A stretch of 64,000 nucleotides of DNA from an uncultured Alphaproteobacteria bacterium (GTDB lineage Bacteria; Pseudomonadota; Alphaproteobacteria; Rhodobacterales; Rhodobacteraceae): assembly GCA_902619165.1 (NCBI GenBank), contig CACNDI010000002.1, positions 1-64,000 of the forward strand. Reading direction: 5' to 3'. A program made the position numbers and the translations under genes. Of the stretch, positions 11,600 to 52,113 are shown piece by piece. Every line of letters begins with the position of its first letter. Position 1 is the stretch's first letter. The notes under the pieces were generated by a model, which saw only the letters and a list, made by a program, of their open reading frames with translations, did not search any database and was not told the DNA's origin.

Positions 11600-11962
<363 letters not shown>

Positions 11963-11993: not shown

Positions 11994-12008
11994 GTTCTAT
12001 TTTTGTTC
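11994..12008 (+). promoter_or_regulatory. LexA (SOS) box, alphaproteobacterial type
   Basis: The sequence is GTTC, seven bases (TATTTTT), GTTC: an exact match to the GTTC-N7-GTTC direct repeat recognised by LexA in most Alphaproteobacteria. Its last base is two bases before the ATG of the OB-fold gene at 12011, in the position expected for an operator blocking a promoter at the start of that gene. It is also 71 bases upstream of the ferredoxin start on the other strand. No second such box was noticed upstream of other genes, though I did not scan exhaustively. Confidence 0.72.
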
Positions 12009-12010
12009 TC

Positions 12011-12346
12011 ATGAAAAATGCTCGGAAAAATGATGCGATCTTGACTTGTGCTGAATTATGTACTTTAGAGAATAACTCTTTTGCAGCAGTTGCAGGGTTT
12101 GTAATTGTTAAACAGATGCCCTCAACAGCTAAAGGGACAGTTTTTCTAACATTAGAGGATGAAACAGGGACCTCAAATATAATTTGTTGGAATAGTGTTT
12201 ACAGAAAGTTTAGGGATCAAGTTGTATTCTCTTCGTTTTTATTAGTAAGTGGACAGCTGCAAAGGGAAAACGAAGTCTCTCACCTAATTGCTGATGATAT
12301 AAGAGACATCTCAAGACTTCTAGAACTTATTCCAAATATAAAATAA
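12011..12346 (+). CDS. Stand-alone OB-fold protein, DnaE2 C-terminal-like
   Basis: 111 residues. The whole protein matches the C-terminal OB domain of the error-prone polymerase DnaE2/ImuC: AILTCAEL, then AGFVIVKQMPSTAKGTVFLT, LEDETGTSNIICW and LLVSGQLQRENEVSHLIA, compared with my recollection of the AGLVLVRQRPGSAKGVVF, TLEDETG and GRLQREG pattern of DnaE2. Full DnaE2 is about 1,050-1,150 residues; the polymerase, PHP and finger regions are absent and the 87-base upstream gap cannot hold them. The frame is intact and begins at the domain boundary. No Shine-Dalgarno is visible before the ATG; the LexA box occupies that space. It is either a decayed relic or a small SOS-induced nucleic-acid-binding protein. 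Confidence 0.75.
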   Translation: MKNARKNDAILTCAELCTLENNSFAAVAGFVIVKQMPSTAKGTVFLTLEDETGTSNIICWNSVYRKFRDQVVFSSFLLVSGQLQRENEVSHLIADDIRDISRLLELIPNIK

Positions 12347-12353
12347 ACTTGCA

Positions 12354-13802
12354 TTACTGAGTTGGCAGACCAATAAATCTTCTCATACCGTTTCTTAGTA
12401 TCAACATTAGTATGGATGTTTTGTTTGCCTTTTTTGCCTCTTCGTTAAGTTTGTAAAGTTCGTCTGTGGAAGAGATCTTTATCCTGTTTATTTGAATAAT
12501 TACGTCTCCCTTTTTCAACCCCTTCTCCTCGCCAACAGACCCTGCTTTTACATCTACTATAACAACACCCTTTATATTTTGATCAATACCAAACTGTTCA
12601 GCTACTTCTCTCCCTAAATTAGACAAAGTCATCCCTGCAAACTCGACTTTTTTTGTCCTTTGTCTCGTTGGTTGGCTTGACGCAATGTTATCTTCTAACC
12701 GACCTAGCTTGACGGACAAGGACACTTTCTTTCCATCCCTCAGTACCTTCACTGACACCTGCTTACCAACAGGACTGTCCCCAACTATCCTAACGAGCTC
12801 TCTGGTGTCCTTTATTGTCTTACCGTCAAACTCAATGATAACATCTCCTGATTTTATACCACCAGTTTTAGCAGGTCCATCAGGGACATCAGTAACTAAA
12901 GCACCATCAGTTTTTTCAATACCAAGCGCTTCCGCAACATCTTCAGTAACATCTTGTATTCTGACTCCTAACCAACCTCTTCTTGTCTCACCAAAAGTCG
13001 TAAGCTGGTCTATTACTTTCTCAACTACAGCCGATGACATTGAGAAACCTATACCTATAGACCCACCATTCGGAGAAAGTATCGCCGTGTTAACACCAAT
13101 AACTTCACCATCCATGTTAAAAAGTGGTCCTCCTGAGTTTCCTCTATTTATTGCCGCATCGGTCTGTATGAAATCGTCGTAAGATCCACTTAAAGCCCTT
13201 CCCCTAGCAGATATAATACCTGCAGAAACAGAGAACCCTTGACCTAAGGGATTACCTATAGCTAAAACCCAGTCACCTACTTCAGCCTCGTTGCTATCTC
13301 CAAACCTAACAAACTTAAGCTTATCTTTCGCCTTAACTTTTAAGAGTGCTATATCTGTCTTAGGGTCAGTTCCAACAACTGTTGCCTCCATTAATCGGCC
13401 ATCAAAAAATTCAATTTCTATCTGATCGGCGTTTTCAATAACGTGATTATTTGTTACAACATAACCGTCAGCTGAGATAATAAAACCTGAGCCCAGCGCT
13501 GTACCCCTTCGCTGCCTTCTAGGTGCACCATTTTGTTCTCTATCCATAAAATCTCTGAATAAATCTTCGAATGGCGAACCAGGTGGTAGTTGTGGGTTGA
13601 GTCCCTGCCTGTTAGGCACGGTGGAGCTGGTAGTTATATTAACCACTGAAGGACTCAATTTCTCCACGAGATCACTAAAACTACCCGGAATACTCTTTCC
13701 GTGGGATATACCACTAACAAACACAAAAAATAAGAAAGTCCAAACTGGTAAAAGAGCATAAGAAAAGAATTTTTCTGCAGTATTTTTTCTCAAGACGTTC
13801 AT
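12354..13802 (-). CDS. degP: Periplasmic serine protease, DegP/Do family
   Basis: 482 residues with an N-terminal signal sequence or anchor (hydrophobic stretch about residues 17-32). The trypsin-like domain has the complete triad His120 (TNNHVIENA), Asp150 (DPKTDIALL) and Ser223 (RGNSGGPLF). Two PDZ domains follow (about 255-355 and 385-480). It degrades or refolds damaged envelope proteins. It is last in the hflK-hflC-DUF2065-degP cluster, which groups two membrane quality-control systems. DegP, DegQ and MucD cannot be separated from sequence alone. It converges on the OB-fold gene with seven bases between stops. Confidence 0.92.
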   Translation of the reverse strand: MNVLRKNTAEKFFSYALLPVWTFLFFVFVSGISHGKSIPGSFSDLVEKLSPSVVNITTSSTVPNRQGLNPQLPPGSPFEDLFRDFMDREQNGAPRRQRRGTALGSGFIISADGYVVTNNHVIENADQIEIEFFDGRLMEATVVGTDPKTDIALLKVKAKDKLKFVRFGDSNEAEVGDWVLAIGNPLGQGFSVSAGIISARGRALSGSYDDFIQTDAAINRGNSGGPLFNMDGEVIGVNTAILSPNGGSIGIGFSMSSAVVEKVIDQLTTFGETRRGWLGVRIQDVTEDVAEALGIEKTDGALVTDVPDGPAKTGGIKSGDVIIEFDGKTIKDTRELVRIVGDSPVGKQVSVKVLRDGKKVSLSVKLGRLEDNIASSQPTRQRTKKVEFAGMTLSNLGREVAEQFGIDQNIKGVVIVDVKAGSVGEEKGLKKGDVIIQINRIKISSTDELYKLNEEAKKANKTSILMLILRNGMRRFIGLPTQ

Positions 13803-48150: not shown

Positions 48151-49347
48151 TCAACCTTTGTAATTATAAATCCAATCGAGCCTCTTAAAAAACAAGTTTG
48201 GAGAAAATCTACTTAGACACTGCAGAAAAACAAAAAGAATCTTCCTTAACACTCTTTGTTCCAGATGATATACCTTCTCATTTAGCCTAGAAACTTGATC
48301 CAGTTGATGTATTCTCTTTATTCTCTTTTTAGAGTAATTGTTCAGTGCCTCATTTATATCTAAGGGGAACTCCTTTATGCAATTTGCTAACTCCCAACTG
48401 TCCTCCAAAGCCTTATTGGCTCCCTGAGCCATGTAAGGGAGCATGCTGAGAGCAGCATCTCCTACCATAACGACATTTTTTTTGTGTATTATAGTAGGTA
48501 TTCCACTCTCAATAATAGGCCACCTGTAAATCTGTTCCACATCAGGGAGACAAGTTTTAAGGGTCTCATTTAATTCAAAATCATTTAAAAATTTTTTCTT
48601 AGTTACCTTTTCCTTCCAGTTATTAATTGTCTGTCCTTTTTCTCTTTTACAGAAAACAAAATTTATCATTCCATCATTTCCAGTTGGATAAGTTACAAAA
48701 TGTCTGCCTCTACCAAAAAATAGATTAATGTTATTTTTGGAAAAAATAGGCGGCAAAGTTTTTTTACTCAATACAAATCGGTAAGCCGTTTGCGAAATGG
48801 TTCGAGTATGGTTCGTTTTAAAGATATTTTTTTTCCATAAAGAGCCAACACCATCTGCGACAATAATGAGGTCTTTTTCAATTTTTTTCCCTTTGTACGA
48901 TATGTAGATATCTCGTTCATTTTTTGAAACTAAGGGAAGCGCTCTTGAACCAAAGCTAACCTTTATTTGTTCCTCTTTAACTTTTTCAAACAAAATTTTT
49001 ATAAGAAATGATCTATGTAGGGTAATGAAAGGTCTGCCGTAGCGAGATTTTAATCTTTCTAGAATTTCCAAACTACCGATACTTTTAAAGTCAGTTTCAT
49101 CAAATAAACACAAATTGTTAGGTTTTAAACCAGCTTCAACCACCAATTTACCAAGTTTTAACTTCTCCAGAACAAATAAGCCATTAGAGGTGAGCTGAAT
49201 ACCTGCCCCTTCATGTTTCACTAACTTATCTTTTTCAAATATAGTAACGTCGCAACCGAGCTGCTTCAAAAACAGCGCGGAGCATAAGCCGGATACGCCT
49301 CCCCCTATAATCGCTACTTTAAAACTTTTTGATTTGCTGAGACGCAA
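48151..49347 (-). CDS. FAD-dependent monooxygenase
   Basis: About 398 residues of the PHBH/UbiH-like aromatic hydroxylase family. FAD-binding VAIIGGGVSGLCSALFLKQLG at the start (longer than shown motif is not needed), the DG motif IIVADGVGSLWKK near 160 and GDAALSMLPYMAQGANKALED near 290. The open frame reaches 49413, overlapping dksA by 53 bases, but a TTG at 49347 lies 14 bases after the dksA stop with AGAAGAGA ahead of it and gives a normal N-terminus, so I choose it. Salicylate-hydroxylase-like; substrate unknown. Confidence 0.85.
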   Translation of the reverse strand: MRLSKSKSFKVAIIGGGVSGLCSALFLKQLGCDVTIFEKDKLVKHEGAGIQLTSNGLFVLEKLKLGKLVVEAGLKPNNLCLFDETDFKSIGSLEILERLKSRYGRPFITLHRSFLIKILFEKVKEEQIKVSFGSRALPLVSKNERDIYISYKGKKIEKDLIIVADGVGSLWKKNIFKTNHTRTISQTAYRFVLSKKTLPPIFSKNNINLFFGRGRHFVTYPTGNDGMINFVFCKREKGQTINNWKEKVTKKKFLNDFELNETLKTCLPDVEQIYRWPIIESGIPTIIHKKNVVMVGDAALSMLPYMAQGANKALEDSWELANCIKEFPLDINEALNNYSKKRIKRIHQLDQVSRLNEKVYHLEQRVLRKILFVFLQCLSRFSPNLFFKRLDWIYNYKG

Positions 49348-50931: not shown

Positions 50932-52113
50932 ATGTTTTTAAATCTTTTTGACGAAATGAAAAGCGCCAAAATACCCGTTTCGCTTCGGGAATATTTGACG
51001 TTTCTGGAAGCATTGACTGCAGGTGTAGCAATTTTTGATGTAAACAATTTTTACTATTTAGCTCGCGCCTCTCTTGTTAAGGACGAGAGACATATTGATA
51101 GGTTCGATCAGGTTTTTTCGTATGTATTTAAAGGGCTCGAGGCCATTGAAATTGAAGAAGTTTTCAAAAAAATTGAAATTCCAAATGAATGGATAAAAAA
51201 ACTGGCTGAGAAGACTTTATCTAAGGAAGAAATGGAAAAGATAAACAGCTTAGGTAGCTTTGAAAAACTAATGGAAACATTGAAGAAGCGATTGGAGGAA
51301 CAAAAAGATCGCCATCAGGGAGGAAACAAATGGATAGGTACGGCGGGCACATCTCCCTTTGGGGCCTATGGTTATAATCCAGAGGGAATTCGTATTGGAC
51401 AACATGAAAGTAGGCATAAGCGTGCTGTTAAGGTCTGGGATAAAAGAGAGTTTAAGAATTTTGATAGTGATATAGAGCTCGGTACTCGAGGAATGAAAAT
51501 AGCTCTTAAAAGACTAAGAAGATGGGCAAGAGATGGTGCGGATGAAGAACTAGATCTAGAGAGTACCATAAGCTCCTCGGCTAAAAGTGGTTTTATCGAT
51601 GTCAGAACTCGACCTGAACGTCGAAATGCTATTAAAGTGATAATATTTTTTGATGTTGGTGGATCAATGGACGCCTATATAAGACAGGTCGAAGAATTAT
51701 TTTCGGCAGCTAGGACAGCATTTAAGCATCTTGAGTACTATTATTTTCATAATTGTCTCTACGAAGGAGTGTGGAAAAACAATCATAGGAGGTGGACTGA
51801 ACAAACGCCCACGACAGAAGTAATGAATACATATGGTAAGGATTATCGATGTATCTTCGTTGGAGATGCGTCAATGAGCCCTTATGAGATAGAATATCCA
51901 GGTGGAGCCAACGAACATTATAATGCTGAGTCAGGTAGAACATGGCTCGAAAGAGCCATTACAAAATGGCCTAACTATTTATGGATAAACCCAACCAATA
52001 AAGACCATTGGGAATACACACATTCAACTCATATTATAAAAGACATATTTGAAGATAAAATGGTTCCTCTTACCCTAAATGGATTGAAAGAGGGCATGAG
52101 ACATCTTTCATAA
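50932..52113 (+). CDS. VWA-domain protein, CoxE-like
   Basis: 393 residues. N-terminal segment FLNLFDEMKSAKIPVSLREY and VFKGLEAIEIEE are typical of the DUF58/CoxE-type VWA proteins, and the VWA domain (about 220-390) has the MIDAS-like DVGGSMDAYI in place of DxSxS, then IFVGDASMSPYE. It has ten or more charged residues in the linker (EKMEKINSLGSFEKL region). Predicted partner of the MoxR ATPase. Substrate unknown. Confidence 0.88.
   Translation: MFLNLFDEMKSAKIPVSLREYLTFLEALTAGVAIFDVNNFYYLARASLVKDERHIDRFDQVFSYVFKGLEAIEIEEVFKKIEIPNEWIKKLAEKTLSKEEMEKINSLGSFEKLMETLKKRLEEQKDRHQGGNKWIGTAGTSPFGAYGYNPEGIRIGQHESRHKRAVKVWDKREFKNFDSDIELGTRGMKIALKRLRRWARDGADEELDLESTISSSAKSGFIDVRTRPERRNAIKVIIFFDVGGSMDAYIRQVEELFSAARTAFKHLEYYYFHNCLYEGVWKNNHRRWTEQTPTTEVMNTYGKDYRCIFVGDASMSPYEIEYPGGANEHYNAESGRTWLERAITKWPNYLWINPTNKDHWEYTHSTHIIKDIFEDKMVPLTLNGLKEGMRHLS

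Follow-up and report, generated by a model that had tools for sequence, protein, structure and literature searches.

The window, a stretch of 64,000 nucleotides from the draft genome (G000) of an uncultured member of the Rhodobacteraceae, carries between a ferredoxin gene and a protease gene a short open reading frame that encodes an OB domain of the error-prone polymerase DnaE2 and is preceded by an exact LexA box (Table 1). The preliminary description of this DNA had placed the box two bases before the ATG of an intact 111-codon gene for the DnaE2 OB domain, and both points were borne out, the frame being free of internal stops. Two further exact GTTC-N7-GTTC sites are present in the window (48800-48814, forward strand; 51605-51619, reverse strand), a number near chance expectation (three in all relative to 1.35 expected, with at least three in 17 of 100 shuffles). 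Within the genus of the window genome, the stand-alone OB gene was present in 15 of 22 genomes.

Table 1. Genes and regulatory features at the OB-domain locus (positions in the window)
Feature	Position	Strand	Basis and remarks
2Fe-2S ferredoxin gene	11600..11923	-	Top match TIGR02007 fdx_isc, E 4.5e-17, below cut-off; divergent, upstream; locus marker, context only
LexA box GTTC-N7-GTTC, GTTCTATTTTTGTTC	11994..12008	+	Exact; followed by TC, then ATG (12011)
-10-like hexamer TATTTT within LexA box	11998..12003	+	Family promoter pattern; 7 bases 5' of ATG
Stand-alone DnaE2 OB-domain gene, 111 codons	12011..12346	+	NF004225 match, AlphaFold2 fold, genus orthologues
DegP/HtrA-type protease gene	12354..13802	-	TIGR02037, E 2.7e-147, above cut-off; convergent, downstream; context only

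The OB protein aligned with the DnaE2 model NF004225 (1,047 positions) from position 938 to 1037 (98.7 bits, E 2.4e-28); this C-terminal end was the best fit among NCBIfam models, whereas DnaE1-type models scored at most 31.5 bits. The Pfam OB-fold PF01336 was also matched (E 1.5e-10), and the matches obtained at E values up to 1, 4 in Pfam and 11 in NCBIfam, included no SSB family model. The AlphaFold2 model, made with 30 sequences, had a mean pLDDT of 90.5 and an OB-fold-like arrangement of five strands and helices. When this model was used in Foldseek, 297 matches were returned (E up to 0.001), headed by the OB-fold domains of aspartyl-, asparaginyl- and lysyl-tRNA synthetases, RPA14/32 and Stn1-Ten1; the top 50 included no Pol III alpha chain. 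A profile search of the PDB gave RPA14 as the sole match (E 0.0098), and a sequence search gave two human phosphatase chains (E 0.15). Twenty residues were invariant in a comparison of 16 stand-alone OB domains with 14 fused ones. A phage origin of the gene is unsupported, as 50,697 phage records yielded a single partial match (51% over 51 residues), and a role in defence was likewise rejected, the gene matching no PADLOC family. The OB domain was contained in 819 plasmid records; of the 15 listed, 14 bore the annotation error-prone DNA polymerase and one was unannotated.

The PHP-Pol3-HhH body with the catalytic aspartates is not part of the OB protein and is encoded by a separate gene, whose product has 948 residues in the genus. 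The preliminary description had taken the polymerase body to be missing; a truncated DnaE2 lacking the OB domain in fact lies on other contigs of the same genome, broken into three pieces where contigs C16 and C19 end and with one frameshift in an A-run, and the corresponding frames are open in the relatives listed. Both imuB and dnaE2, which had been proposed to be sought elsewhere in the genome, are thus present, the latter truncated rather than full-length. Searches with NF004225 detected DnaE2 above the cut-off in 17 of the 22 genomes of the genus, in open frames of 948-952 amino acids (except for a frame in G021 starting at position 143) that stop at model positions 940-943, the OB protein spanning the model from 938 onwards. 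Another genome, G008, contained a C-terminal piece of the body, and no body was found in the drafts G002, G003 and G020 (62-72% complete). Both the window genome and G007, of the same genus, have imuB (562 aa) followed by a methyltransferase-like gene of 293 aa and then the dnaE2 body. This run opens with imuB, whose start is overlapped in the window genome by an exact LexA box (C16:3714-3728). The SAM-methyltransferase-like gene (L131 9384-10265; L133 1128-2009) was seen between imuB and the body in the window genus and in G129, and it also precedes the body in G035 and G118.

The distribution of the two parts was surveyed in 140 genomes of the family, one per genus, using a fused DnaE2 and a profile from 12 stand-alone OB proteins (E up to 1e-8) as queries and cross-tabulating the results. 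The raw table comprised 56 genomes with a truncated body and an OB gene, 67 with a fused gene only, 11 with neither and 6 mixed cases. After the mixed cases had been checked, a truncated body was seen in 59 genomes and fused-only DnaE2 in 68, while 11 were without any DnaE2 part or OB gene. The stand-alone OB gene was present in 57 of the 59 genomes with a truncated body and in none of the 68 fused-only genomes. In total 59 stand-alone OB genes were found, the remaining two being those of G102 and G092. In G102 the OB gene is accompanied by the N-terminal part of a DnaE2 that runs into a contig edge; as the end of this DnaE2 lies beyond the edge, the genome was not counted as having a truncated body. 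G092 is a true exception: a near-complete genome with the OB gene and imuB and without a body. As to the two truncated bodies without an OB gene, in G105 the contig stops 222 nucleotides from the ferredoxin gene, in the direction in which the OB gene would be expected, and in G085 the ferredoxin locus was not found (best match 43%). G076 has a split pair on the chromosome and, in addition, a fused cassette on a plasmid, and short-frame OB matches in G130, G134 and G185 were assigned, by our own judgement, to broken or contig-edge fused genes. That relatives keep the halves as a set suggests that these probably still work as one enzyme.

Among the 59 family genomes with a stand-alone OB gene, 58 have the ferredoxin gene upstream of it. 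In a scan of species genomes of relatives, of which the best 80 of 528 were kept, the body directly preceded the OB domain in 55, the OB gene was stand-alone with ferredoxin upstream in 23 and the arrangement differed in 2; the stand-alone genes among these 80 came from AG- single-cell or draft genomes and from Roseovarius, Defluviimonas, Pseudooceanicola, Maritimibacter and Solirhodobacter. In eight genomes with both halves on one contig, these were 0.3-2.9 Mb apart in contig coordinates. The split might in principle be an artefact of assembly or frameshifting, in view of the draft state and broken body of the window genome and of one apparent split (G030) that turned out to be a fused gene spanning the contig origin. 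We regard this as next to impossible, given that body and OB gene occupy different loci and that the split is also present in genomes of one to five contigs (G034, G075, G086, G141 and G174).

The accessory gene imuB was present in 129 of the 140 genomes, including every genome with any DnaE2 part, and was missing from exactly the 11 without one. It lay upstream on the same strand in 3 of the 59 truncated bodies (within flanks of mostly about 4.5 kb, shorter in three loci), so that linkage to imuB can be ruled out as a rule in split genomes. All imuA matches in the 24 genomes searched were below the cut-off; among 14 split genomes, a weak match besides the RecA-like one occurred in 10 and was lacking in G000, G007, G129 and G022, as it was in G092.

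In a FastTree phylogeny of 88 bodies (937 columns), all 59 truncated bodies (58 from the family survey plus G007) formed one clade with a local support of 1.0, nested among the fused DnaE2 proteins of the family, the nearest fused relatives being G025 and then G062; long branches led to G007, G129 and G169. With a single clade of truncated bodies, the simplest history would be one fission. The OB-only tree was too short to show a single origin (three changes needed) and had long branches for G000 and G129; the common ferredoxin locus of the stand-alone genes fits such an origin. Behind a common HPxxLLR-type motif the truncated bodies have only a tail of 6-223 residues, which contains no OB domain; the catalytic PDxDxDF pattern is kept in all 59 and a clamp motif (xLPLF or similar) in 55. 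The C-terminal SRDF[H/R] motif was found in 20 of 21 fused DnaE2 proteins and in none of the 59 truncated bodies or 59 OB proteins. Four truncated bodies (G105, G159, G166 and G182) retain the HPRxxR tail that follows the OB domain in fused proteins, which suggests that the OB domain was cut from the middle. Among the fused loci fetched, imuB was upstream in 19 of 22; the other three (G025, G062 and G078) lacked a same-strand imuB in the 600 nucleotides upstream and had an exact box each of their own, the imuB of G062 being divergent and about 0.9 kb away. A likely order of events is that dnaE2 was first detached from the cassette or turned, with its own box, and that the OB domain was split off thereafter. 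G122, which is sister to the other split genomes, has its OB gene elsewhere, with a long low-complexity N-terminus and a fused-like C-terminal tail, and looks like an intermediate of the split.

The exact LexA box was not enriched in the window genome as a whole (37 occurrences relative to 53 for the reversed pattern), and taken alone the box in the window is no more than chance would give; its position and conservation are not due to chance. In 115-nucleotide windows around the 59 stand-alone OB core starts, 48 exact boxes were found, where the remainder of these loci would predict 0.38. Orthologues in relatives, for which the preliminary description had proposed a search, retain both gene and box: an exact box was present in 14 of 15 copies in the genus, at 57 of 59 in the family and at 22 of the 23 stand-alone loci among the best 80 of 528 relatives (none at L061). 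The family boxes lie within 260 nucleotides upstream of the matched core in 56 cases and 5 nucleotides before an in-frame ATG in G122; none was found upstream of the OB gene in G097 and G035. The exception in the genus is G004, at whose OB locus (L018) a sequence resembling the reductase near 16 kb in the window reaches, by eye, the start of the OB gene; the locus looks like a chimeric join.

In 49 of the 56 aligned family promoters, the first in-frame start codon behind the box lies 16-18 nucleotides from the start of the box. Box and ATG are thus usually separated by 1-3 bases, too few for a ribosome-binding site to fit between them. The interior of the box reads TATNTT, each of its five fixed positions being kept in 44-51 of the 56 promoters, and a T(T/G)G element precedes the box at -18 to -16 (T in 49, T or G in 55 and G in 44 of 56). 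Together these form a -35/-10-like pair with 16-nucleotide spacing and a predicted start point at the ATG itself; the window copy keeps the -10-like and not the -35-like part. This pattern suggests a leaderless promoter that LexA would repress by covering the -10 element.

LexA-like boxes were also found at the truncated bodies (18 of 59 exact, 38 with one mismatch and 3 with more mismatches), compared with 10 exact and 97 one-mismatch boxes in 1,180 control windows; no such box was found at the body of G007. As the bodies and the OB gene have boxes of their own, and imuB has one in the window genome, SOS control seems to act on each piece independently. The proposal that the operator had stayed with the OB domain is at best partly right: the OB gene has a box, and so do 56 of the 59 bodies (zero or one mismatch) and imuB in the window genome. 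The recA gene of the window genome carries an exact box. A lexA gene was found in 9 of the 15 genomes searched in the genus, with an exact box beside it at 5 of 6 lexA loci examined, and was not found in the window genome (87.8% complete). Two other sites in the window genome were noted in passing. At L309 (C16:6700-8800, 1022-1356) an exact box lies 11 nucleotides before an ORF of 102 aa that had no NCBIfam match at E up to 1e-5 and is perhaps another SOS gene, and at L306 (C14:22234-22259) two overlapping exact boxes stand directly behind a helicase-like frame, presumably RecG, with no ORF of at least 80 aa on that strand for about 600 nucleotides.

The absence of decay noted in the preliminary description agrees with the dN/dS of the OB gene in the genus, which was far from one (median 0.13, pooled 0.127, maximum 0.84; 81 usable of 105 pairs). 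The same description had allowed for a relic. In such a reading the gene would be a translocated and decaying 3' end of dnaE2 with a chance operator. It is indeed small and detached, two copies are without an exact box, and there are the long OB-tree branches of G000 and G129. Such an origin is nevertheless highly improbable, considering the purifying selection, the confidently predicted fold, and a locus and a box shared by 58 and 57, respectively, of 59 genomes that each represent a different genus. Across 55 split genomes, OB and body distances were strongly correlated (r 0.91; partial correlation 0.87 given ferredoxin; 0 of 2,000 permutations as high), and the correlation persisted without the long branches G129 and G169 (r 0.73, partial 0.69). 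The corresponding values for the OB and the adjacent ferredoxin were r 0.56 and, without the two long branches, 0.31; as the ferredoxin control is short and slow, the correlation between OB and body may partly reflect a common rate.

Taken together, we consider it probable, at roughly three in four, that DnaE2 (ImuC) is here split over two genes, of which the OB gene is one, and that the SOS response provides the OB domain in trans, with the halves acting together. What was observed in favour of this is the sequence identity of both halves, their co-presence, the single clade of bodies, the conserved operator and locus, and purifying selection; from these sequence data we infer LexA repression, a leaderless start, mutual binding of the halves and a mutagenic function. 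Counted against it are G092 without a body, the boxless G097 and G035, the distance between the halves, the broken body and apparent lack of lexA in the window genome, and the unenriched box. Alternatively, the OB protein could be an independent SOS factor that binds single strands, for example for ImuB, recombination or the replicase, with the truncated DnaE2 working free of an OB domain. The body and OB genes are unlinked, G092 retains the OB gene and imuB with no body, and OB-less DnaE2 and DnaE3 proteins in the available part of PMC3919608 imply that a body can exist without an OB domain. We find this unlikely, in light of the OB gene occurring alongside nearly all truncated bodies and never with fused-only DnaE2, of the invariant residues common to stand-alone and fused OB domains and of the correlated distances; moreover, G092 (L215) has ATC at the usual position of the ATG, with an in-frame ATG within the box.

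Under the split-DnaE2 reading, the OB domain would have been excised from the error-prone polymerase in one of the ancestors inside the family and have become a separate gene beside the ferredoxin gene, the PHP-polymerase-HhH body, clamp motif included, remaining elsewhere as a protein of about 930-1000 residues. LexA bound to the box that covers the -10 element and almost touches the start codon would repress the OB gene. Removal of LexA upon DNA damage would then give a leaderless OB mRNA, so that OB protein and body are made together and may act with ImuB in translesion synthesis, where the OB protein probably holds the single-stranded template beside the polymerase body.

The imuA-imuB-dnaE2 cassette is described as persistently LexA-regulated where present (available text of PMC3323433), and a plasmid-borne cassette of this type is reported for Dinoroseobacter shibae (available text of PMC9426580); neither dnaE2 nor imuB is named in the available main text of the paper on D. 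shibae LexA (PMC6473078). The split pair resembles the cassette in its DnaE2/ImuC parts, its SOS box, the presence of imuB in the genome and the clamp motif of most bodies, and differs from it in having the OB domain on a separate, unlinked gene, in lacking SRDF[H/R] from both halves and in the rarity of imuB directly upstream of the body in the flanks fetched. According to the available text of Timinskas et al. (2013; PMC3919608), SRDF[H/R] occurs in about 77% of DnaE2 proteins as a likely protein-contact motif, and several DnaE2 and some DnaE3 proteins are without an OB domain. These share the truncated body with the present family, but there the OB domain is simply absent, and that text describes no separate OB gene or operator. 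RPA14 and Stn1-Ten1, which were among the Foldseek matches, are alike in that an OB-fold can work as a small subunit, whereas the present protein belongs to DnaE2 by sequence. The view that a stand-alone SOS gene of this kind had not been described still stands, as no description of a separate OB gene was found in the main texts of the open-licence literature.

The split accounts for the seemingly incomplete DnaE2 of many family members, the missing part being a separate SOS gene. As nature has here parted the OB domain from the body, the pair also lends itself to probing the role of this domain in mutagenic synthesis. More tentatively, and at somewhat less than even odds, these organisms may possess a C-family polymerase of two separately regulated subunits, in which an OB subunit made only during the SOS response is expressed from a leaderless promoter that fuses operator, -10 element and start codon in a 20-bp block. 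If so, the detached OB domain would let the cell tune the template grip of its mutagenic polymerase, and the OB subunit could be shared with other SOS factors.
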